This document shows, piece by piece, positions 1-12,597 of a stretch of DNA of 25,607 nt (position 1 is the stretch's first letter; each line of letters starts with the position of its first letter). This DNA comes from a virus. The position numbers and the translations under genes are program-made. The stretch lies in IMG/VR virus record IMGVR_UViG_3300049812_001767, positions 1 through 25,607 of that record, one strand, 5' to 3'. The notes under the pieces were generated by a model. The model ran no database searches. It was not told the DNA's origin and worked only from the letters and a program-made list of their open reading frames with translations.

Positions 1-3000
1 CTTCTGTCTACTAGAAATTCAGAGTTCATTAACTCCATAAAATCTTTCCAATATTGTTTTTGATTTGCAAATGCAACTGCAGCTTTAGCAGGGTTATTAA
101 AAGTCCAATTAATATAGTTAACAGACGATAAAGTTTGTAATAAACCAGATCTCATATTAAAGAACATAACAGCACCAACAGAATTATTTAACCAATTAAA
201 AAACTGATTTTCTAAACGACTTTGGCTTTGTTTTCTATTCATACCTGTAGTCATACGCTGTAGCATATCTTCAAGAGCTTCTCTAAACTTAGTTCCATAC
301 GTAGCTTGTATAGCATTCATTAGTTGGCCATTGTATTTACCGTTTTTATATTCTCCAAATATAATTTCAATATTGTCTTTCCACTCTTGTAAAGCTTTAG
401 GTCTTTTAACTAACCTAACTCCTTGAAGTAAATCACCTAGTATAGTACCAGCTCTCCATGTGTTACCTGGGTAATAATATCCATCACCTTTATTTATTGC
501 TACTAATTGATCTGCAAACTGTTGATAAGACGCGTTTGAATTAGCAAGATCTTTCATACTATTAAGTGTACTAACTGGTAAACCTTCTATTGTTATACCT
601 TGAGAATCCCAAGCTAATATTCTAATCATGTCTTGATAAGTATAACCGCCTAGGCCTGGAACTTCATCTTGCAAATTTTTAATAGGCTTACCATTTCCAA
701 CAAACGTTTTAACTAGCTGTTTATGATCTGCTATTAAAGAATTTTGATAACCGTTAATTTCATTTAAAGCTCTAGTATATGGTGCTACTAAATTGTCTTT
801 TAAAAACTCATAATCTGCATCACCTTCAGTACCTTTACCTAAAAATCTGTACAGTAAACCTGTAAAATTCTGAGCAGAAGCAGCCATAAATATATCGTCT
901 CTTACTTTGCTACCTTTTATTTCTGCTTTTACTTCTGATATATTTCTTAAAGCTTCTTCACTTAATTTTTTATTTTTAGCAGCTGTCATTCTAAATAGCT
1001 GATTTGCTATCTGTTCACCATCTAAAGCAAATCTTTCTTTAGCTTGTTGAACTCTACTTTTAACATCGGCAACTTCTACTAAATCTTTCATTGCATCAAC
1101 ATTTTGCTTAGTATCATCTGCAAAATAAATATCATTATAACCTTCAGCTATTTTACCGGCCATCCAGTTTGACTTAGCAAAAGGTGAGCTATTTCCTAAA
1201 CCTACTATATTTTCTAAAGGTAAATCTACACCTTGTGATTTTAAAAAAGCTTGTATAGCTTTTTCGGATTCAGGAGCTCTAGCAGTAAGTATAAACAAAT
1301 CTCTATCACCAGGAGTTTCCTTCATTTTTTTAAGTAATTCAAACAAAGGTCCTTTTTTACCATCTCTTACTATGTTAAAATCTGTAAAATCAAATTCAGC
1401 TCCTTTAGTTAGTAAATCTGAACCATCAGTAGCAAACTCTTCAGCCGTTAGTTCTCCTTTAGTACCATCAGGCATAGTGTAAAAAACTAAACTATTACTT
1501 TTAGCAACTGTATCATCAAAATCAAAAACTCTTATTTTTTTAACTTCTTCATTAGGTGTTCTAGCTTTAGTTAACACTTCATCTATAGTAGTCATTTTAC
1601 CTAATATTTCCGGATTAGAAGTTTTGGAATCAACTTCTTCTACCTTAGAGTCATTTAATGTTTTAGCGTTTCTTTCTTTAGGTTGTAATTGATTATTAGT
1701 ATTTTCTTCTAAAGACACTTTTTCTGGTAAAATCTTATCCTGTACTACCGTGTTTGCATCTAATGAAGGATCTTTAATTGAAAAGTAATTATCTAAATTA
1801 AAACCGCCATCTATTAATAATCTAGCATAATCAGCTGAAGATGTAGTACCACCTACTATATCTATTAACTCTGAAGCTGCTTTTACACCTACAACTTGAT
1901 CGTAGTTAGCCAATATTAAATCAGTTTCAAGACTTAAAGTTTTTAATATAGCTTCTTTTTCAATGTCATTACCAGCAGCTTTTCTTAATTTTGAAACAGT
2001 TTTTAATACATTTTCAGCTATTTTAGCATTTAAACCTGAAACTGGGCTAATGTGTTCTCCTTTAAATTTAAGGTTTTCTGCTAGTTTTTCTTCAAAAGCT
2101 TCTGCAGTTATAACATCTCCACCTTTTTTACCAGCTTTTATACTAAGTTGTGTTCTAGTTACTTCCTCAGCTAATTTAAAATACGGATGGTCTGTGTTTA
2201 TACCTTGTTCTTTATCGTCTTCAAAATATACAGATTGAGACTGCTCTGTAGGTTTTTGTATTAAAGAAACTCCAGATAAAGCCCTCCAACCTTTAGTGTT
2301 ATTAGCACTTGTTTCTAATAATCTTAGATAACCAGGTATTAAAGAAGGATTATCTGCTAGTATCTCAGCAGACTTAACTGTTATATAATTAAAAGCTTTT
2401 TTATTAGCTATATCAGCTTTTTGTAGTTGATCTATTATACCACCAGGTACTATTTTACCATCTACTAGTCCTAGTTCAGCGTACTTAGCATCAATACTAA
2501 TATCTTTTTTTAATATGTTTTCAGCTTTATTAAGTATTTTATACCCAGAGTTTATTAATCTAATATCTTCAGGGTTAAAATCTAGATTATCTTGTACTTT
2601 ACTTTTTTCAATTTTCTTTTTAATATCATCAAGTTGTTTTTTGTATGGACCAAATATAGTACCAGCTTTATCTTTTTTGCCACCGTCTAAATAGCCGTAT
2701 ATATAACCAAGAAAAGTAACTCCTCCAACTGCTTTTAAAACAGTAGGATCTATAACTTCTAGCAACTTTTTATTAAATGCGTGCATTTGTTCTGCACCTT
2801 CTTTAGTAATTTTTCCTTTTACTTGAGTATTAACTTTAAAATACTCATCAACTTGATCTTGAAGTTCTGTAGGAATATTCATATCCCTTACTTTTTGCTT
2901 GTACTGTTGAACTTCTCCAAATAAATCGTTTAATCTTATAAATATATCTTTGTAATTGTCTCTTAAATCTTTAGGTATTTTTATTTGAGCAGTCTCCCAA

Positions 3001-6000
3001 GCACTCATATCAGCACCGTTATTCATTGCTTCTGTAACAGCGTCCATTATAATTTTAGCTGACTTATCTGGGTTTAAAGCGAACCTATCTTTTGGATCTC
3101 TCTGTATTTCTCTAGCTATTTCTTCAACTGTAACTTCAGCCTGACCAACAATCTTATTTCTTTCATTATACATGTCCATCATATCATCTTGTTGAATGAC
3201 TTCCATTGTAGCGTCTTTGCCTAGGTTTTTAGCAATAACTGCATATAATTGATTTAACTTAGTGTATTTAGTACCTTTAGTTGGGTTTAAGTGATAATTA
3301 ACCCAAGCATCTTCATTATATGGAGCTTTTTCATATAGATAAACTCCATCTGCTATTTGCTCTTCTGTTTTAAAAGGTATTAAACCTTCTGCAACAGCTT
3401 TTCTAGTTTCAATAGGACCTAATCTTTTGCCTTGAATAGTAAAATCTTGAAAAGATTTATTCATGTTGGCCTGATCAATAGCATTATACATTTCTTCACC
3501 ATACGTACGTAAAAAGTTTTCAGCTCCCATATCTTGCACCATCTCTTTTATATCGTCAACTAGTTCAGTAGCATAACTATCTTGTAAAGATTTTTTAAGT
3601 TGTTTTATTGTAGGTGGTTTGCCTCTGAAAGTTTTTATTACAGCTTGCTTAGTATTTTCAAACACCTTACTTCCAGGTAGTATGCCTAAAGATTTACGCA
3701 TATTGTTTTTACCTTCAATATTTTCTTCAGTAGATAACTCTTCAACGATGTTTTCATCTGTAGTAGGCGTTGCAAAATCTCCTTTTTCTTGTTGTTGCTC
3801 TAGACTTGTGTTTTTTAATTCTTTACTTAAATCATCTAATATCTTAGGTAATCTTTTAGATAAATTGTTTCTAACATATATACCAAATGGCGAGTCTTTA
3901 AGTGAAGCGTCTCTTTTAAAAAATGTAGAGTATAAGTTATCAAACTCTTCTTCTAATCTTTGTTTTATTTCAGATACAGGTATAGCTCCTCTTGGATCTA
4001 TACTTTTATTAATAACTTCTTGTACTAATGGACCTTTATTTCTTTCAACTAAACTATTTTCTGCTCTTCGCTTAGCACCAATACCTGACTTAGGATCTTC
4101 AATTGTAGCTACATCTTGAGCATTTTGAATACCTTTATTAAGTACTTTAACTCTCTTTTGTAGTTTAGTAAGCTGTTTGGTATAATCTACAGAAACCATA
4201 TCTGCTTTTCTAGCAGTTAAATCTTTTATTTTATTTATTATATTAGTTTTTTCTTCTATATTTTCTTGAGTAGTAGCTGCTCTATCTTTACTTTCTGTTT
4301 TATCAGTTGTTGTTCCTTCTATACCAAGAGTAGGTTTTACTTTAGTCTTAAACTTAGTTTCAGCATCTTCATCTACTATTGGTTCAAAAGGAGTTCTATC
4401 TCCTTTAGCAAAATCTTTTAAGTAATCTATAAAATCGCTGTCTTTTTCAAACTTAATAGTTCCTAAATTAGGTAATTTGCTTTTTAATGATTTAGGTAAT
4501 TTGTTATATAACTTTCTTAATGACTTCTTGTATATATTTTTTATACTAGTTAAAGATGTTTTAACGTTATCATCATACTTTACAGCATCAATAAAATTAG
4601 CTATTATTTCATCTGCTAATTCTAAATCACTAGATCCTTTTTCTTCGTATTTTTTTAATATATCTAAATATTTAGAGTTTTCTACAGTTATATTTCCGTT
4701 TTCAATTTCATTTATAATAGCATTAGCCATAGCAAAAGTAGAACTTTCATCACCTGTACTTCTTTCAATATCATCTACTATTTTATGAAACTCTTCATGA
4801 CCAGCTTTATCTTCTCCTATTATTAAACCTGTTTGCTCATCATAAATAAAATATTGCTTGCCGTCTTTATCTCTATAAAATTTAGCAGCATTACCTTTCA
4901 TTGATGTTCCTATCTCTTGAGCTTTTTCTTCTGCTTCTATAGGGTTTTTAGCAACTATAATAGTAGCATCAGGATAATCTTGCTCTTGTTTTTTAGCGCT
5001 CTCTCTTATAGACTTTATTGTTGGATCTACTTTTTTATCAATAGTTTCTGCTTCTTCATCAAACTCACCTTCAACAGTAGTTTGTAAAGCTAACTGTTTT
5101 AATTTTTCATCGGTGCCTTTTAGTTCTTCTATTTTAGCAGCAGCTAAACTTGGATCTAAGTTTTTTATTTCTTCTTCTAGCTCTGATTTGTTTAACATTA
5201 AATCAAAAGCTTCTTTAGCATCTTTGACATTTAAATCTGCTGGTATCTTCTGTAATATATTATGTATTTTTTCAGCTTGTTTTATTTCTTCATTTACTTT
5301 ATCTATTTGCTCTTGAGTAACTGAATCAATAGATTTTAACTCTGCAAGTTTTATAGCTTTCCATATTCTATATTGTTGAGGATCTCTTATTTGTAAATAA
5401 GATTTTAATTGATCTTCATTTTGTTTTTTTAACTCGTTTATATCATTAGCTTTAGTAGCTATTTCAACAGCAGCATTAAAACCTGAATAAGCACCTACAG
5501 TCATTAAGCTAACCCAAACAACATCAGCAGTGTTTTCTTTCCATTGATCTGATAAAAACTCTGCAACCTCAAAACCTTGTTTAGTATCTAAATTTTTTAA
5601 AGAGTTATATAATTGTCTAGTTAATCTTTCAACCTCTTCTTGAGTAACTTCTACTGAAACTTCTGTAGCTCCTATAACAGGTATGCTGAATAATTTTTGC
5701 GCAGCAAACTTTTTAACTACATTATTTAAAGCTTCTCTAGTTGTAACCCCTTTTTTAAACATAGAGTTTATAAGTCTAAGAGTTAAAGCTTTGCCACCTG
5801 GCGTAGCCATAGCGTCAATACCTATTTTATCTAATAAACTTATAGCATAAGACAAACCTGTACTAAGTATTATCTCTTCAGTAGGCGTCATTTTAACTAA
5901 CCTACCTTTTTTTCTATAATTTAATATTTCAAATTTAAAATCATGAGCAGTTCTAGACATCATAGGTAAGTTTATATTTAATAAAGCTTTACCTATTTGA

Positions 6001-8462
6001 CCTATTTTTTGAGATCTAGTAAGATTTTTACTTTTAAGTAATTTTAATAATTTAGTTTTTCTCAACTTGCTAGTTCTACCTAATAAAGATATTCCACCTT
6101 TCATAGTGTATATATCCATTATTAATTCAACTAAAGCTTTTTCAACTTGCCCAATTCTACTAGCTTGAAAGTCTTGATTAAATTTATCAAATTCTTTATC
6201 GTCACCAGGTTTTATATCTAAAGCTCTCATTATTTCCTCAGAACCTTCTACAACTCTTACGATACTTTCAGCCATTTTATCAGCAAACTCTTCTCTACTA
6301 GTAGCTAAAGCTGCAGCTTGCAAACCTTGCAGCATTAATTCTACAATACCAGCTGGAAGCTTTACAAAAGTATCTTTTATCCTGTTTAATAATGTAGCTA
6401 CATAGTCAGCTATACTACCCTCAACATCTTGCTTTTTTTGTAATTTAATTTTCTCAAGAAGCGTTGTAAGTTGTTTGCCTAAAATAACTTCATTGTCTTT
6501 TATTAAAGCTTGTAAATAATTTAACTTATCTTGGTAATCTACAATTTTATCTACAACTTCATTAAATTTATCTTCATTATTAGATATTATTTCTAATAAA
6601 GGCAAATTATTATTTTGTTCTTCTAGTATTAAATCACTATTTAAAGTAATACTTACGCCTGTTTCAGGGCTAGTTACTATAACATTATCATCAACTTTCT
6701 TTGTGTCAAAATTAGAAAAAGGTTTTTTAGTATATTCTTCTATTAAATTATTAAAGTAATCTAATTTAGCATTATATGAAGGTACTAACCTGTTATATTC
6801 TGATATTTTATTAGTATCTTTTAAGTCTTCCATCTGCTGTTTACTAATTTTTTTATCAGTAAAAGCATCTAGCATAGCCTCTGTATAAGCCTGCTTTAAG
6901 GAGCTAACCTTATCTTCTATATCTTTTTTGTCTTGCATTACATTAGAGTTAGCTAAATCAGCTTGTAACTGATCTATTTGTGCCATTAAGTTATTGCTAA
7001 CTCTTTGTTGATCTTTATATATTTCTTCTATGTTTAAAAGATTTTCTGAGTCATCGTAGTCTCTATTGTAATCTGTTTTATTTTCTTTTAAAAACTTTTT
7101 TAATTGGTTAACGCCATTTATATTGTTGTTTCTAGCTTGAGATATACTTAAACCATCCATATTGTCTAAGTCTATAGGTAAGAATAAAAAGTCAATATCT
7201 ATAGACTTGGCAACTTCACCATTACTATTTAAAGGTTCGCCATCGTAAAGATTTAAAAATACATCATCTCTCTCTGTATCGTTAAATACATTTTCATCTT
7301 GAACATCTGCATATAATTTTCCATTTTCATACTTAAACCCGTAAGCTCTAAACTCAGACTCATTAAATTTTTCCCAAAGCTGATCATTACCAACGTCGTC
7401 CATGCTAGGTAGATTAGACAATGCGCTTTCAAAAGATTTATTATTAGGACCTGTAAAAACTTCTTCTTCAAATAAAGTGCTAGGCTCTGGATCATACCAA
7501 TCATCTTTGTATTTTTGAACTTGAGAGTTCCAATACGCATCATTTTGAAATTTACTTATTTCATCTTTAGTTATAGCTACTTCTAGTTCTGGTAAAGTAT
7601 ACTCTTGCCCTTGATTAGCTTGAGTTTCTATATTTCCAGCAGAGTCAGATAATACAACTCGATCGTCTTGACCTATATCTTGTTGTATTGTAACTTCTTC
7701 CGTTTCCAACAAAGGTTCATAACCACCTTCACCATCAGGCTTAAACATACCAGGTATAGGAGTTGCCTTAGTAACTGTAATTTTTTCTTTAGTATCACCA
7801 GGTATAATACCTATAGCTTGTTTAACGTCACCTGTTGGTCCTACAGCTTTATTGTTTTGTCTAATAAAATTAGCTGTGCTTTCTTCTAGTTCATCTAACT
7901 CTATAAAAGGTTTTTCACCTGGTTCGTCACCTAGGTTTAAATTAGTAACAGAGTCAATATCTAGATCTTTAGCTATTATAGATGTAATTTCCTCTATAGT
8001 TAATCCTTTTTTTCTTTTTTCAACACCTTCTACGTCATCTTTATTTAATGGCCCCTCATACCAATTATCAATTGTATCTTTAACATACTTATCTAGCTTT
8101 TTGTTTCCAGTATTTATAGTAGTAGACGGTTCAATAACTTCAGGTAAAGATTGTTTTAATTTACCTATAATTTTAACTTTTCTTTTCTCTCTTTTTTTAG
8201 CAAAATGAGGTTTATAATCTTTGGATGTTAACTTTGGAGTTGATTTAGAGATAGTAGGTATCTTACTAGTAGGCGTCTTACCAGTCTTTACCTTGGGCGG
8301 CTTACCTGCTTGCTTAGCGAGTTTTTCGGCTTGCTTTTTTCTTTTTTTAGCTTCTTTTTCAGCAAGTCTAACATCTTTAGGTTTTTGTTTTTGGGACTTT
8401 GATCCTTTAAATCCCCCAAAAAGTCCAAACCTATTTGCCTTGTTTTTAGGTGGAGTTGCCAT
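1..8462 (-). CDS. Giant multidomain virion protein (3' end outside window)
   Basis: Reading from the ATG at 8462, the frame stays open for 2820 codons to the left edge, so the protein exceeds 2820 residues and its stop is not in the window. In order: a Lys/Arg-rich low-complexity N-terminus (about 1-105); long, mostly helical charged stretches; hydrophobic segments at about 981-1004 and 1907-1925; a peptidase-like HEEFH motif at 1222-1226; a HAD-phosphatase domain at about 2310-2462; then a region (about 2465-2820) whose texture I associate with giant proteins of marine phages and 'large polyvalent protein' domains. It starts one base after the stop of the upstream gene (TAA-T-ATG) without a Shine-Dalgarno site, so it is probably translationally coupled. 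Following two internal-virion-like genes, it is most likely an ejected internal protein. I saw no RNA polymerase DxDGD loop and no obvious lysozyme motif in the part present. The frame is certain; the functional reading is inference. Confidence 0.9.
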   Translation of the reverse strand, partial: MATPPKNKANRFGLFGGFKGSKSQKQKPKDVRLAEKEAKKRKKQAEKLAKQAGKPPKVKTGKTPTSKIPTISKSTPKLTSKDYKPHFAKKREKRKVKIIGKLKQSLPEVIEPSTTINTGNKKLDKYVKDTIDNWYEGPLNKDDVEGVEKRKKGLTIEEITSIIAKDLDIDSVTNLNLGDEPGEKPFIELDELEESTANFIRQNNKAVGPTGDVKQAIGIIPGDTKEKITVTKATPIPGMFKPDGEGGYEPLLETEEVTIQQDIGQDDRVVLSDSAGNIETQANQGQEYTLPELEVAITKDEISKFQNDAYWNSQVQKYKDDWYDPEPSTLFEEEVFTGPNNKSFESALSNLPSMDDVGNDQLWEKFNESEFRAYGFKYENGKLYADVQDENVFNDTERDDVFLNLYDGEPLNSNGEVAKSIDIDFLFLPIDLDNMDGLSISQARNNNINGVNQLKKFLKENKTDYNRDYDDSENLLNIEEIYKDQQRVSNNLMAQIDQLQADLANSNVMQDKKDIEDKVSSLKQAYTEAMLDAFTDKKISKQQMEDLKDTNKISEYNRLVPSYNAKLDYFNNLIEEYTKKPFSNFDTKKVDDNVIVTSPETGVSITLNSDLILEEQNNNLPLLEIISNNEDKFNEVVDKIVDYQDKLNYLQALIKDNEVILGKQLTTLLEKIKLQKKQDVEGSIADYVATLLNRIKDTFVKLPAGIVELMLQGLQAAALATSREEFADKMAESIVRVVEGSEEIMRALDIKPGDDKEFDKFNQDFQASRIGQVEKALVELIMDIYTMKGGISLLGRTSKLRKTKLLKLLKSKNLTRSQKIGQIGKALLNINLPMMSRTAHDFKFEILNYRKKGRLVKMTPTEEIILSTGLSYAISLLDKIGIDAMATPGGKALTLRLINSMFKKGVTTREALNNVVKKFAAQKLFSIPVIGATEVSVEVTQEEVERLTRQLYNSLKNLDTKQGFEVAEFLSDQWKENTADVVWVSLMTVGAYSGFNAAVEIATKANDINELKKQNEDQLKSYLQIRDPQQYRIWKAIKLAELKSIDSVTQEQIDKVNEEIKQAEKIHNILQKIPADLNVKDAKEAFDLMLNKSELEEEIKNLDPSLAAAKIEELKGTDEKLKQLALQTTVEGEFDEEAETIDKKVDPTIKSIRESAKKQEQDYPDATIIVAKNPIEAEEKAQEIGTSMKGNAAKFYRDKDGKQYFIYDEQTGLIIGEDKAGHEEFHKIVDDIERSTGDESSTFAMANAIINEIENGNITVENSKYLDILKKYEEKGSSDLELADEIIANFIDAVKYDDNVKTSLTSIKNIYKKSLRKLYNKLPKSLKSKLPNLGTIKFEKDSDFIDYLKDFAKGDRTPFEPIVDEDAETKFKTKVKPTLGIEGTTTDKTESKDRAATTQENIEEKTNIINKIKDLTARKADMVSVDYTKQLTKLQKRVKVLNKGIQNAQDVATIEDPKSGIGAKRRAENSLVERNKGPLVQEVINKSIDPRGAIPVSEIKQRLEEEFDNLYSTFFKRDASLKDSPFGIYVRNNLSKRLPKILDDLSKELKNTSLEQQQEKGDFATPTTDENIVEELSTEENIEGKNNMRKSLGILPGSKVFENTKQAVIKTFRGKPPTIKQLKKSLQDSYATELVDDIKEMVQDMGAENFLRTYGEEMYNAIDQANMNKSFQDFTIQGKRLGPIETRKAVAEGLIPFKTEEQIADGVYLYEKAPYNEDAWVNYHLNPTKGTKYTKLNQLYAVIAKNLGKDATMEVIQQDDMMDMYNERNKIVGQAEVTVEEIAREIQRDPKDRFALNPDKSAKIIMDAVTEAMNNGADMSAWETAQIKIPKDLRDNYKDIFIRLNDLFGEVQQYKQKVRDMNIPTELQDQVDEYFKVNTQVKGKITKEGAEQMHAFNKKLLEVIDPTVLKAVGGVTFLGYIYGYLDGGKKDKAGTIFGPYKKQLDDIKKKIEKSKVQDNLDFNPEDIRLINSGYKILNKAENILKKDISIDAKYAELGLVDGKIVPGGIIDQLQKADIANKKAFNYITVKSAEILADNPSLIPGYLRLLETSANNTKGWRALSGVSLIQKPTEQSQSVYFEDDKEQGINTDHPYFKLAEEVTRTQLSIKAGKKGGDVITAEAFEEKLAENLKFKGEHISPVSGLNAKIAENVLKTVSKLRKAAGNDIEKEAILKTLSLETDLILANYDQVVGVKAASELIDIVGGTTSSADYARLLIDGGFNLDNYFSIKDPSLDANTVVQDKILPEKVSLEENTNNQLQPKERNAKTLNDSKVEEVDSKTSNPEILGKMTTIDEVLTKARTPNEEVKKIRVFDFDDTVAKSNSLVFYTMPDGTKGELTAEEFATDGSDLLTKGAEFDFTDFNIVRDGKKGPLFELLKKMKETPGDRDLFILTARAPESEKAIQAFLKSQGVDLPLENIVGLGNSSPFAKSNWMAGKIAEGYNDIYFADDTKQNVDAMKDLVEVADVKSRVQQAKERFALDGEQIANQLFRMTAAKNKKLSEEALRNISEVKAEIKGSKVRDDIFMAASAQNFTGLLYRFLGKGTEGDADYEFLKDNLVAPYTRALNEINGYQNSLIADHKQLVKTFVGNGKPIKNLQDEVPGLGGYTYQDMIRILAWDSQGITIEGLPVSTLNSMKDLANSNASYQQFADQLVAINKGDGYYYPGNTWRAGTILGDLLQGVRLVKRPKALQEWKDNIEIIFGEYKNGKYNGQLMNAIQATYGTKFREALEDMLQRMTTGMNRKQSQSRLENQFFNWLNNSVGAVMFFNMRSGLLQTLSSVNYINWTFNNPAKAAVAFANQKQYWKDFMELMNSEFLVDR
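1077..1535 (-). other. HAD-superfamily phosphatase domain inside the giant protein
   Basis: All four HAD motifs appear in order at sensible spacing. Motif I is VFDFDDT, with the expected nucleophile D2314 and acid/base D2316. Motif II is FILTAR, with T2393. Motif III is the lysine K2430 in FAKSNW. Motif IV is IYFADDT, with D2449 and D2450. A cap-like insertion of about 70 residues lies between motifs I and II. In this superfamily these residues form a Mg2+-dependent phospho-aspartate active site, so the domain looks catalytically intact. The substrate cannot be told from sequence. HAD domains in phages include the 3'-phosphatase of T4 polynucleotide kinase and nucleotidases, and either a nucleic-acid end or a nucleotide is conceivable. 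Confidence 0.82.
4578..4880 (-). other. Zinc metallopeptidase-like (HExxH) segment of the giant protein
   Basis: The residues H1222-E-E-F-H1226 match the HExxH zinc signature and sit at the start of a predicted helix, after strand-like segments (FIYDEQTGLIIGED). About 59 residues downstream, E1285 in ADEIIANF resembles the third ligand on the second helix of gluzincin peptidases, which is often written E-x-x-A-N. Such peptidases use two His and one Glu to hold zinc, with the HExxH Glu as catalytic base. HExxH occurs by chance in long proteins, so the downstream Glu context is what makes this worth recording. Possible roles are self-processing of the giant protein or cleavage of a host protein or peptidoglycan peptide. 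Confidence 0.5.
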
Positions 8463-8463
8463 A

Positions 8464-9780
8464 TTAATTTATAATATTTAATTTTTCATCTGTATTAAAT
8501 TCAGTCATTTCCTCTGTTAGATTATCTGATGGAAGCTCTTGATCAATTAATGTTCTAGTAACTTCACCTGTTTCTGGATCAACTGTTTTTTCAAATGTAC
8601 TTTTTAAACCTTGTTGAGATATTTTAACATCTATCATAGGATAAGCATGTTCCTGAGCATAGCTGTTGTTTAAAGCAGCTTGAGTAATTTCTCTATCCCA
8701 TATAACCTCTGGTGAATTAGCCCTATCATAAGATACTTGAGCGCCTGTGTAATTACCTATTATAGATGTACCATTTTTATTGTAATCATTGATAGGATCT
8801 GTCATGCCGTATGGATTATCTTTCCACAATGTTTTTATTTTAAGTTGCATAGGATCAAGCTCTACATCGTCTAGATCTTTTATAGAACTATACACACCTA
8901 AAGTTTGACTTAGTGCCTGAGGATATATACTAGAGCTATACTGTTGGTTATTTAGTATAGCTTCCTGTGGATAATTAGCTATGTCACTAAGTACATTATT
9001 ACCTTCTTCAAAGGTGATTTTACCTTTTTCATTAGGTTTAATTTTTTTATTTTCAAAAACTTTTTCAATAACACTTTGTTTTCCTTCACCTCCACCTATC
9101 ATGTTGTTAGTAACATCTTTCATATCTCCATTTAATTGCACTAAGGATGGGGAATTTGGGTCTAATAATGTTGAATTAAATTTATTCATATCAAACTTAG
9201 AACTACCTTTTAAACCAAAGCGTATATTGGTTCCGTCTTCACTAAGAGTAGCTTCCATATTTTTAAAATCAGGATCAGTTATTAAACTAGAACCTAATTT
9301 AAATATATCATTATCTATTAAGTGAGTGTTAATAGATTTAGGACCACCTCTAGGAACATCTAATGAAGCAGCTAATTCTGTTTTTATGTTATTTAAACCA
9401 GTCATAGTCCCCTTCAAACCATCTGCTAGTTTTAACATTTGATTAGCTGCAAATTTATTTCCTTCAGCTATATGTTTTAAATACTTATCTTTAGCATCCA
9501 TGCCTAACTGTTGTAGAAAAGCATTAGGTTCACTAGGTGTTTTTAAATTAGCAGTTACATTTTGGTTTTCTTGAACTTTATTTTTCTCTAATAAATCTAA
9601 TATTTCATTGTTTTGATCTTGTAAAGTTTTAAAATTTTTTGCAACTCCATTGTCTTCTTCAGCTGTAGCATCAGATTGAGCAAAACTTTTAAGATCTTCG
9701 TTAAATTTTGATATTTCTGCATTAGCTTGTTTTAAGCCAGCTGCGTTGTCTATTATTGCTGGTTGTCTGTAAGTTCCCAT
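8464..9780 (-). CDS. Probable internal virion protein (438 aa)
   Basis: I do not recognise a named domain. The N-terminal third (about 5-160) is helical and rich in Asn, Lys, Gln and Glu, with a likely coiled-coil around 20-70; the rest is mixed alpha/beta with many Asp/Asn-rich loops. There is no signal peptide or membrane segment. It lies between a small membrane-prone protein and the giant gene, which is where podoviruses place their ejection proteins (T7 gp14-gp15-gp16, P22 gp7-gp20-gp16). The start ATG at 9780 follows the upstream stop by 10 bases with an AATAAAC leader and no Shine-Dalgarno site. The role as an ejected or internal head protein comes from gene order only; a tail component is the alternative. 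Confidence 0.72.
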   Translation of the reverse strand: MGTYRQPAIIDNAAGLKQANAEISKFNEDLKSFAQSDATAEEDNGVAKNFKTLQDQNNEILDLLEKNKVQENQNVTANLKTPSEPNAFLQQLGMDAKDKYLKHIAEGNKFAANQMLKLADGLKGTMTGLNNIKTELAASLDVPRGGPKSINTHLIDNDIFKLGSSLITDPDFKNMEATLSEDGTNIRFGLKGSSKFDMNKFNSTLLDPNSPSLVQLNGDMKDVTNNMIGGGEGKQSVIEKVFENKKIKPNEKGKITFEEGNNVLSDIANYPQEAILNNQQYSSSIYPQALSQTLGVYSSIKDLDDVELDPMQLKIKTLWKDNPYGMTDPINDYNKNGTSIIGNYTGAQVSYDRANSPEVIWDREITQAALNNSYAQEHAYPMIDVKISQQGLKSTFEKTVDPETGEVTRTLIDQELPSDNLTEEMTEFNTDEKLNIIN

Positions 9781-9790
9781 GTTTATTATA

Positions 9791-10345
9791 TTATTGTAGT
9801 GCTGTACCTAAACTTGTAGCAGCTCCTGCTATATTGCCAAAAGCTTTAAATTTTTCAGATCTAAAAGCTTGCTCATCCATTCTAGCTTGGTCAAGCTGAG
9901 CTTGAGTCCTATCTAGCTTGGTCATATCTCTTGTTTCTTGTCTTTGAAATCTAGTATCTTCACCTCTAGCAAACATTCTTTGATTAGACAACTCTTGCTT
10001 TTGTATGTCTGCTGATATACCTTGCTTACTTTGTAAAGCAGCTTGAGCTAATGCTGTAGCACCACCCGCTCCACTACCAGTAGCTCTTATAGTATCTAAA
10101 GTATTAGCTAGTGATTGATCAGCTTGCTCTGCTTGAAACTCTGCAGCTTTTGAAGCTACGCCTAAATTTGCATAAGGGTTTGTTATCTTTTGTAAAGCTT
10201 TCTCTTGATCTGCTATAGAGTCTTTAAGTATTTGTTGCTCTCCTTTAGCTTTTTTTTCTTTATTATTAGCGTCTATGGCAACCCCGGTACTTACACCTGC
10301 GGCTACCACTGCTCCGGTAACTAATACTGCTGTTGCTACTGCCAT
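9791..10345 (-). CDS. Probable small internal virion / ejection protein (184 aa)
   Basis: Residues 1-23 form an Ala/Val/Gly-rich hydrophobic stretch that could cross or dock on a membrane. The rest is helical: a Lys/Gln/Glu segment (about 28-55), a Gly/Ala-rich turn (GSGAGG, about 90-95) and an Arg/Gln-rich amphipathic C-terminal half. A short protein with a hydrophobic N-terminus and Ala/Gln-rich helices is typical of the smallest ejection protein of podoviruses (compare T7 gp14 and P22 gp7), which inserts in the host envelope to start the DNA channel. The neighbouring 438-residue and giant genes would be its partners. The stop of the gene before it reads TAATAA and then runs into the ATG, again with no Shine-Dalgarno site. 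The assignment rests on composition and order, not a recognised domain. Confidence 0.72.
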   Translation of the reverse strand: MAVATAVLVTGAVVAAGVSTGVAIDANNKEKKAKGEQQILKDSIADQEKALQKITNPYANLGVASKAAEFQAEQADQSLANTLDTIRATGSGAGGATALAQAALQSKQGISADIQKQELSNQRMFARGEDTRFQRQETRDMTKLDRTQAQLDQARMDEQAFRSEKFKAFGNIAGAATSLGTALQ

Positions 10346-10349
10346 ATTA

Positions 10350-10751
10350 TTAATTTAAAATTTTAACTAATTCATGTGATGGTTTTTCATCTATATGCCA
10401 TCCTAATTTTCTATGTGTTTCTATTAAACTTTTATGTCTACATATACTAAAAGAATACTTGTAACCAAGATCTTTTATAATCTGTTCAGCTCCTGTTATC
10501 AATAGCTCAAGAGCTTGTTTTCTATTTTTATCTCTATATTCTGGATCTGATATAATCCACTCTAACAAAGCTACTTTCGCGTTTGTTAAGTATATAAAAC
10601 CAGCTATTACAGGCTTGCCGTTATTTTCAACAACAACACCTGTTTCTGGTAAAAAATCGTCAGCAGGAGATGTCCACTCTGGCCATGCTTCCCACCATTT
10701 TCTAATAAAAGTTAAATCTTCTTTTATTAATTTTCTTATATTTAATTCCAT
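10350..10751 (-). CDS. GNAT-like N-acetyltransferase family protein (133 aa)
   Basis: The pattern follows the GNAT fold. An N-terminal IRKLIKEDLTFI strand and helix come first, then two central strands (about 37-56, GVVVENNGKPVIAGFIYL). Motif A follows, with strand ALLEWIISDPEYR (61-73) and its helix (about 76-93), and a late strand and helix end in HRKLGW (113-118), a typical GNAT C-terminal signature. At 133 residues it is near the minimum for a single GNAT domain. The acetyl-CoA pyrophosphate loop, normally (Q/R)xxGx(G/A), reads R73-DKNRKQA here, so the usual glycine is missing. The enzyme may be divergent or inactive. It sits inside the tail and ejection gene run, so it may be a virion component or modify one; its substrate is unknown. 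Similar proteins are, to my knowledge, common in marine phage structural modules. Confidence 0.7.
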   Translation of the reverse strand: MELNIRKLIKEDLTFIRKWWEAWPEWTSPADDFLPETGVVVENNGKPVIAGFIYLTNAKVALLEWIISDPEYRDKNRKQALELLITGAEQIIKDLGYKYSFSICRHKSLIETHRKLGWHIDEKPSHELVKILN

Positions 10752-10755
10752 TTAA

Positions 10756-12597
10756 TTATGATGCAGACGCTACTATGTTTGTAGAAGCTGCAAATATTTG
10801 TTTTTGTCCAGCTAAATCAGTACTTGAATCTGTTTGAAGAGTTACTGTAGCAAAATATCCTTTTATACCTGATATTGTACTACCATAAATAACTTCACCA
10901 ACTCTTATACCACTGTTATTTTTTAAATTAGCTACATATTTACCCTCTTTTAATGTAAATCCAGCTCTGTATATTGGAGGTGTTAATGCTGCTGGGTATT
11001 CATTTCCATAACCATCATAAGCACCTTCGTAGTAACTATTTATAGTTACACTATTATCGGTATAATTTACATATTCTGATATGGTAGGAGAAGGATTTAT
11101 ATAGTTATCATTTACTACTTGTTTACCTTGTTGATCAGATGCAAAGCTAGATATTTCCCAACCGTTACTTCCTTCGTAGCCTATAGTTAAAAAGCTTTTA
11201 CTTATATTTACCTGTGGGTTAAATACAAATGTAATAGAAGATTTAGCTGCAGCAGCACCATAAAACACGTTTCTATTATTAGGCGTGCCTGTAAAATAAT
11301 GCTCATAAATCTCAGAAGAGTTAGTTGTAAAATAAGTATTTTTTAAACTAAATATGTTATTAGGCTTATAGCTGTAAAAAGTAGGCCAACCATTAATATT
11401 TTCATCAAAAGCTAAAGTATAATAATTTTCAGTTTGATTAGTAAATGTTGAGTTTCCAGCTTTCTGAAGTGATACAACATATTCTCTATCATGTATGTCC
11501 CAACCACCTAGTATTTTATCTCTTTCAAAAGTTCTAAACTTTAAATTAGCATCGGTAGGTATTGTAAAATTAGGATATTGACTAAGCGTTACGTAATTAT
11601 TTCTCCAACCAGTAACATAAATATCATATTCAACTCCATTGACTATTAGTTGAGAACCTAAAGGTATTGTTGGTCCAGACACTATAGTTATATAAGGAGG
11701 TATTCCACCACCACCTGGATCTTGAGTATTAGCATATACAGCAGAAACATCTACTGCTTCTAGGTTTTCGTTTAAGTCTTTTAACTTATCTCTAAAAAAG
11801 TTTGACATACCATACTCTGATATTTCAGTAATACCGTCAGCAGATAATCTTAATATAGAGCCTCTATCTTTATCTGCAAAATATTTTCTAAAACCATACA
11901 CAGCAAAAGACTCTGGGTTTTTACTAATACCAAATTCACCAGCATATGGGCTTAATTGACCTATAACAGTTCCAGGAGGTAGAGTTTGTGTACCACCTTC
12001 AGTTGTGTATATAGTATCTTTATCTATTAAAGCTTTATTTACTTTATCTTCTTGAAATACTATTAAGTTAGTATCTTCAGCATATAATTTTTGAATACTA
12101 CCTTTTTGAGGATCAACAGCTCTAGTTATAGTTTCACCTACCGAAAACACGTTAGTTTCGTTTATGCCTGTTCTAGAGTTATATACACCTGAATATATCA
12201 AAGCATTAGGCCTAAATTCAGGTTTATTAAAATCTTCTTTTAAATAAGCTTTAGCACCATAATCTACCGATGTAGCATTAAAATCTTCTTGGTATCTAGA
12301 AGCTTCTATAAACCAGTTTTCTTGCTCATCAAAACCATTTGTATTAGTAGGTGGAGTAGCAACAGTTCCAGGCTCTTTACCATTACCAGAAGGATAAGGA
12401 GGAAAACCAGTTGTTTCACCAGACCACGGTATACTTGGCCAAGTAGAAGCTATACCACCTCTCCATTGCTGTGGAGTTGCAAAGTTGCCATAATCGTAAG
12501 GCAAGCCACCACCAACACCTGAAGGAGTTCCAGTATATATACTTTTCTTTATCCAGAAAGAATTATAATAATCTACTTCTAATTTGTAATATGACAT
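10756..12597 (-). CDS. Tail structural protein (613 aa), likely partner of the 1170-aa tail protein
   Basis: The protein is rich in Gly, Asn, Thr, Ser and aromatic residues with little helix, which is the texture of beta-rich tail or neck proteins. Residues about 15-90 are a Pro/Gly/Thr-rich linker-like region. A well-defined central block (about 170-270) contains YAEDTNLIVFQEDKV and ISKNPESFAVYGFRKYF, segments I associate with tail stabilisation-type proteins of marine and crAss-like phages. The C-terminal part (about 400-613) is beta-rich, with EGKYVANL and a small-residue tail end. It follows the 1170-residue gene by 15 bases and probably builds the same tail structure. In relatives these two pieces may be one polypeptide. 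The start ATG at 12597 has no Shine-Dalgarno site. A receptor-binding role is possible but not shown. Confidence 0.75.
   Translation of the reverse strand: MSYYKLEVDYYNSFWIKKSIYTGTPSGVGGGLPYDYGNFATPQQWRGGIASTWPSIPWSGETTGFPPYPSGNGKEPGTVATPPTNTNGFDEQENWFIEASRYQEDFNATSVDYGAKAYLKEDFNKPEFRPNALIYSGVYNSRTGINETNVFSVGETITRAVDPQKGSIQKLYAEDTNLIVFQEDKVNKALIDKDTIYTTEGGTQTLPPGTVIGQLSPYAGEFGISKNPESFAVYGFRKYFADKDRGSILRLSADGITEISEYGMSNFFRDKLKDLNENLEAVDVSAVYANTQDPGGGGIPPYITIVSGPTIPLGSQLIVNGVEYDIYVTGWRNNYVTLSQYPNFTIPTDANLKFRTFERDKILGGWDIHDREYVVSLQKAGNSTFTNQTENYYTLAFDENINGWPTFYSYKPNNIFSLKNTYFTTNSSEIYEHYFTGTPNNRNVFYGAAAAKSSITFVFNPQVNISKSFLTIGYEGSNGWEISSFASDQQGKQVVNDNYINPSPTISEYVNYTDNSVTINSYYEGAYDGYGNEYPAALTPPIYRAGFTLKEGKYVANLKNNSGIRVGEVIYGSTISGIKGYFATVTLQTDSSTDLAGQKQIFAASTNIVASAS

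Follow-up and report, generated by a model that had tools for sequence, protein, structure and literature searches.

What is the protein encoded by a single reading frame that is still open after 2,820 codons when the contig ends, and what would a virus use it for? The window analysed here, a linear IMG/VR record of 25,607 bp taken at its full length, carries such a gene on its minus strand (3..8462), running from an ATG at 8462 to base 3 with its 3' end at the contig edge. A preliminary description had reported a single frame of more than 2820 codons that closes outside the window, and this is borne out by a homologous gene on a separate contig (L003), which is complete at 3,326 aa, stops at L003:19981 and is 71% identical to the window giant across its whole length. 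The L003 start codon lies at the same place as that of the window, immediately past the stop of the upstream gene. Since L003 residue 2879 is the aligned partner of window residue 2820, about 447 residues are missing from the window giant, which answers, by way of L003, the question raised in that description of where the frame closes; by this alignment the complete protein would have about 3,270 residues.

The portal and capsid proteins of the window match those of Flavobacteriia phages, namely Manatee Spring podovirus ctfjg026, Maribacter phage Panino, Elemovirus, Callevirus (Pervagoviridae) and Pachyviridae, at 28-51% identity, and the genome-collection relatives of the giant are mostly Bacteroidota MAGs. 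The window virus is best read as an uncultured Bacteroidota podovirus. A giant is also the last gene of the virion block in Elemovirus (gp18, 3,694 aa), ctfjg026 (3,859 aa), Panino (1,829 aa), phi38:1 (gp101, 1,691 aa) and Cellulophaga phage phi18:3 (gp123, 1,935 aa), and the earlier placement of the window giant at the end of the tail and ejection gene run thus holds in related phages as well. Most giants of related viral contigs measure 2,070-3,608 aa, and in Bacteroidota phages akin to Elemovirus, Callevirus and Pachyviridae the virion genes end with proteins of 2,000-3,900 aa. In this regard, phi18:3 gp123 bears the annotation 'virion structural protein, experimental MS/MS', and the proteins encoded immediately ahead of it, gp120 and gp121, are likewise listed as virion proteins on the basis of experimental MS/MS.

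The window giant is linked to this MS/MS-annotated virion protein through a conserved core module around its peptidase (residues ~886-1407; 4242..5807, minus), which is homologous to relatives, to phi38:1 gp101 and to phi18:3 gp123. A core profile built from 20 relatives, leaving out the window and L003, recovered L003 (E 5e-15), phi38:1 gp101 (E 6e-13), the window (E 3.6e-11) and phi18:3 gp123 (E 4e-6), the best of 20 shuffled controls reaching E 0.0085. The hhalign probability for the module was 98%, and group profiles independently reached the phi38:1 and phi18:3 proteins, down to E 5e-18. The virion annotation itself belongs to gp123.

We consider it likely that the giant represents the giant subunit of a T7/N4-type podovirus ejectosome, belonging to the 'polyvalent protein' class and devoid of a recognisable polymerase. 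This is supported by the MS/MS-detected gp123 and by phi38:1 gp101, which occupy the same syntenic slot and share a homologous core; against it, gp123 is shorter than the window giant and lacks HExxH. More broadly, phi18:3 gp123 (Pachyviridae), phi38:1 gp101 (Callevirus, Pervagoviridae) and Elemovirus gp18 resemble the window giant in position, in the small-medium-giant block to which they belong, in cysteine absence and in the core module. The phi18:3 and phi38:1 giants differ from it in their length of 1,700-1,935 aa and in having neither HExxH nor HAD, whereas Elemovirus gp18 carries HExxH together with a DUF3293 domain and no HAD. The C-terminal module of the window was undetected by sequence in all three.

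The giant opens with a basic region (residues 1-110; 8133..8462, minus), with 33 K+R vs 6 D+E in residues 1-100 and a net charge of +26 across residues 1-150, in agreement with the basic N-terminus described before. The hydrophobic segments of that description are weak: no 19-residue Kyte-Doolittle window along the giant has a mean above 1.42, for which reason transmembrane segments were rejected, and a clear membrane segment is found instead in the 184-aa ORF upstream. Within the core lies a predicted zincin-type metallopeptidase (residues ~1147-1296; 4575..5024, minus), with the zinc-binding/catalytic motif HEEFH at residues 1222-1226 (4785..4799, minus), conserved in relatives, and a conserved third ligand, Glu1285 (4608-4610, minus); the peptidase-like site suspected at first can now be given these residues. 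The HExxH residues and the distal Glu are the only four invariant positions in an alignment of 22 sequences (the window and 21 relatives), among which identity across the peptidase region is only about 15%. The predicted model shows the helix order around three strands known from zincins, at low pLDDT, and a Foldseek search of the domain model against PDB returned no fold match.

Further on, the variable middle contains the sequence GEHISP (residues 2135-2140; 2043..2060, minus), whose E-H column pair (residues 2136-2137) is nearly invariant and reads EHxxP in most relatives; no relative emerged when viral contigs were scanned with the middle region. It is followed by a predicted HAD-type phosphatase domain (residues ~2301-2466; 1065..1562, minus), confirmed by motifs as proposed in the preliminary description. 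All four elements of the set DxDx[TV], [ST], K and DD are present (4/4), in the form of DFDDT (D2314/D2316), ILTAR at 2391, a K, and FADD at 2447, and they are retained in nearly all relatives; Pfam scores of the region stay below cut-off, and its model reaches a pLDDT of ~80-90. In two relatives, L022 (giant residues 2236-2369) and L028 (2432-2577), a P-loop kinase separates HAD motif I from the remainder of the domain, and in a third, L026 (796-942), such a kinase lies just behind the peptidase. All three are of the AAA_33/zeta-toxin type, and the occurrence of a kinase at two different places may be taken as a sign of module exchange.

From residue 2467 onwards begins a helical C-terminal module (3..1064, minus), which is complete (~850 aa) in L003; together, HAD and C-terminal block are 36-47% identical to ~20 relatives. 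A Foldseek comparison of the C-terminal model with viral models retrieved close uncultured relatives, more weakly a structural protein of Tenacibaculum phage Gundel_1, and PolyVal/LPD-named proteins, for which E was 1e-5 to 6e-4 and the TM-scores were low, so that a structural likeness to polyvalent-type phage proteins is, at this stage, a lead. The predicted models of the giant have a mean pLDDT of ~60, and neither of the two giant models had a significant Foldseek match in PDB. With the window giant and family profiles as queries, sequence searches of Pfam, PHROGs and PDB identified no domain with confidence, and tblastn of the giant against 50,697 phage records gave no match, or a single weak one in the HAD region.

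The proposal that the giant is a purely structural internal virion protein, a core or scaffold component in which the enzyme-like motifs survive as inactive relics, would fit the location of its homologue in the virion, the absence of HExxH from the phi18:3, phi38:1 and Panino giants, and a chain that is largely helical without domain assignment. It appears unlikely, however, in view of the four residues kept invariant at such low identity, the HAD motifs conserved in nearly all relatives, and the kinase domains that relatives have gained at two different places.

The polymerase found in N4 deserves similar attention. N4 gp50 resembles the window giant in being a cysteine-free protein of 3,000-3,500 aa, encoded by the last gene of the virion block, in which HExxH precedes a large helical C-terminus; a peptidase followed by a large helical C-terminus has been described for the C-terminal part of the N4 virion RNA polymerase (PMC12633501), and the giant RNAP of N4-like phages is an ejection protein (PMC10925440). 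This agreement in size, layout, cysteine absence and operon position might suggest that an unrecognised virion RNA polymerase is hidden in the middle of the window giant (~residues 1500-2250). We regard this as improbable, since the giant lacks a TxxGR motif, its sole DxDxD-like string (DLDID, residue 166) falls outside the middle region, no profile matches the N4 or crAss001 polymerases, and part of the middle (residues 1501-1800) is the least conserved stretch between window and L003, at 60% identity. Having neither TxxGR nor a profile match, the giant does not qualify as a single-subunit RNAP, and assignment as an N4-type virion RNA polymerase was rejected. Unlike N4 gp50, to which it has no sequence homology, it carries a HAD domain instead of RNA polymerase motifs.

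If the giant is an ejectosome subunit, its partners would be encoded by the two genes preceding it. These specify a 438-aa cysteine-free protein (8464..9780, minus) in the 'periplasmic tunnel' position and a 184-aa cysteine-free protein with an N-terminal membrane segment (9791..10345, minus) in the 'outer-membrane pore' position, corresponding by gene order only to T7 gp15/N4 gp51 and T7 gp14/N4 gp52, respectively. The membrane segment spans residues 6-24 (Kyte-Doolittle 2.06), and a family profile of the 184-aa protein built from relatives matches the window at E 1.5e-44 and phi38:1 gp99 at E 1.9e-10. In the window and in most relatives with enough upstream sequence, a small, a medium and a giant gene follow one another immediately behind the tail genes, and N4 (gp52/gp51/gp50) and T7 (gp14/gp15/gp16) show the same small, medium, large order. 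Relatives of such N4/T7-type ejection proteins constitute an outer-membrane pore, a periplasmic tunnel and an inner-membrane or polymerase subunit (PMC10925440, PMC12633501).

The window thus shares a three-gene ejection block layout with N4/Schitoviridae gp50-52 (PMC12633501, PMC10925440). With T7 gp14/gp15/gp16 it has in common the gene order, the relative sizes, the hydrophobic start of the small protein and the lack of cysteine in gp15 and gp16, but T7 shows no detectable sequence homology and its gp16 has 1,318 aa. The crAss001 cargo (gp45-gp50) likewise follows the tail muzzle gene, has 0-3 cysteines per protein and includes an HExxH in gp47; in contrast, the giants share no sequence homology and the RNAP is absent. 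Direct homology of the window proteins to T7 gp14-16, N4 gp50-52 and the crAss001 cargo was undetected. Among pores and tunnels, T7 gp14, gp15 and N4 gp51 were unmatched and N4 gp52 gave only E 0.012, while the 438-aa protein had no detected homology to known tunnels. As the assignment of pore and tunnel genes is inconsistent between two N4-type papers (PMC10925440, PMC12633501), the roles of the 184- and 438-aa proteins rest only on size, membrane segment and order, from which the former would be the pore and the latter the tunnel.

The window giant has 0 cysteines in 2,820 residues; among the giants of 21 relatives (counting L003), 18 are cysteine-free and the total is 8 in 61,337 residues, and the small-protein family has 0 in 4,492 residues (19 relatives). 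The remaining ORFs of at least 300 aa at the same loci contain 9.34 cysteines per 1000, a figure inflated by one outlier, an ORF of 1,080 aa with 62 cysteines downstream of the L022 giant (L022:14801). Per genome, Fisher P for cysteine depletion is 0.007 in the window, 2e-7 in Elemovirus and 8e-11 in ctfjg026 (MW202828), with 1e-10 for the N4 control, and on the window alone the test is therefore modest. ORFs of at least 300 aa without cysteine are not rare as such (16/38). The medium protein of the window lacks cysteine, and its counterparts have 33 Cys in 20 proteins, with 2 in L003; the notion of a family-wide absence of cysteine from all three proteins was dropped, as the medium protein often has a few. 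In line with this pattern, N4 gp50/51/52 and T7 gp15/16 have zero cysteines and the crAss001 RNAP cargo proteins 1-3 each, and long virion proteins of the same phages other than the ejected ones have 2-17 per 1000. Lack of cysteine has been proposed as a requirement for passage of the vRNAP through tail and periplasm in N4-like phages (PMC3715699, PMC2784036); a literature search on cysteine-free ejection proteins generally found no paper, the statement existing for vRNAPs.

A late intracellular multidomain enzyme, made from the end of the structural operon and kept out of the virion, would also have enzymatic domains, and the MS/MS detection comes from phi18:3 and not from a close relative. 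Such an enzyme is nevertheless very improbable, given the concentration of cysteine depletion in the small-medium-giant block and the MS/MS of phi18:3 gp120, gp121 and gp123. As for the gene itself, dN/dS between window and L003 is 0.11-0.31 in 10/10 blocks (nine of 300 codons and one of 114) and their substitutions fall mainly on third codon positions; the giant is a real gene under selection. A chance open frame or an assembly artefact, to which a frame stopping at the contig edge might point, is refuted by the separate full-length homologue, by these ratios throughout the gene and by a chance of ~10^-116 for 2,820 open codons at the window base composition, and can safely be dismissed.

Returning to the giant as an ejectosome subunit, what the sequences show is the gene with its conserved catalytic motifs, its lack of cysteine, its place in the gene order and a core homologous to a protein annotated by MS/MS as part of the virion. 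From these we infer for this phage its packaging and ejection, the roles of the three proteins, and the enzyme activity, self-cleavage and substrates of the giant, in the following scheme. The giant would be packed in the capsid along with its two smaller partners, the 184-aa membrane protein and the 438-aa one, and the three would be expelled from the head before the DNA. On infection, the 184-aa protein would make an outer-membrane pore and the 438-aa protein would span the periplasm, while the giant would slip through the narrow tail as a chain that lacks cysteine and is at least partly unfolded, and would refold at or inside the inner membrane. There, the zincin domain would most likely cleave the giant itself, freeing effector domains, or else cleave a host target, and the HAD phosphatase would act early in the host cytoplasm, with nucleic-acid ends or phosphorylated molecules of the host as possible substrates. 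Delivery or packaging may be the task of the conserved helical C-terminal module, and phages may exchange the variable N-terminal and middle parts among themselves.

The preliminary description had set the giant beside multidomain proteins delivered with phage DNA; the multidomain nature stands, now accompanied by a virion-annotated homologue, and delivery itself is probable. The giant does not stand alone, however: homologues and syntenic giants occur in many uncultured Bacteroidota phages and in cultured ones of Elemovirus, Callevirus and Pachyviridae, and the pairing of a peptidase with effector modules has been published as a theme of 'polyvalent proteins' (PMC5512222). Phage polyvalent proteins (Iyer et al. 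2017, PMC5512222) resemble the window giant in uniting unrelated enzyme modules in one giant chain, with a zincin that in the window giant is a prediction, and the zincin and HAD motifs in one frame provide at least two functionally unrelated domains in a single polypeptide. The window giant gave no match to Pfam LPD domains, and the words 'phosphatase' and 'haloacid' are absent from the text of that paper (PMC5512222). The giant probably works as an N4/T7-type ejectosome subunit does and has the look of a phage polyvalent protein, but on the tests applied it is not an N4-type RNA polymerase.

More tentatively, and with considerable doubt, the family could be seen as a marine Bacteroidota class of giant ejected proteins that has the N4-type delivery layout with a phosphatase in the place of the polymerase, the phosphatase being freed by the giant's own protease to serve as a pre-made early counter-defence or repair enzyme; as part of the same doubtful proposal, phosphatase and P-loop kinase would form a polynucleotide kinase/phosphatase-like pair in some relatives. 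The giant family would show that a giant protein can be delivered in the N4 manner without being a polymerase, and an almost complete lack of cysteine may allow giant phage proteins that travel through the tail to be recognised from sequence alone. Elemovirus and Callevirus phages are in culture, which opens the predicted ejection of a 1,700-3,700-residue protein to direct testing.

Several minor observations concern the neighbourhood and the relatives. The 613-aa tail protein of the window (10756..12597, minus) carries the muzzle C-terminal domain of crassviruses (PF25729, E 1e-7, over gathering score); the portal of the same phage matches those of Elemovirus and Pervagoviridae. A 133-aa ORF (window 10350-10751) separates the tail genes from the ejection genes and belongs to PHROG 17252, of function unknown (E 3.7e-25); its sequence resembles a GNAT acetyltransferase, and its MW202828 counterpart is annotated as an acetyltransferase subunit. 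The Panino giant (L033 35429-40918) is annotated as 'tRNA methyltransferase' and the MW202828 giant (L036 741-12320) as 'reticulocyte binding/rhoptry protein', names without Pfam support and probable misannotations. One Aliivibrio MAG holds three contigs encoding the C-terminal module (L040, L041 and L045), which are probably misbinned Bacteroidota phage contigs. Finally, crAss001 gp47 (L050), annotated as an RNAP subunit cargo protein, shows HEAFH at residue 2157 and only one cysteine among its 2,341 residues, and may carry a zincin as well.
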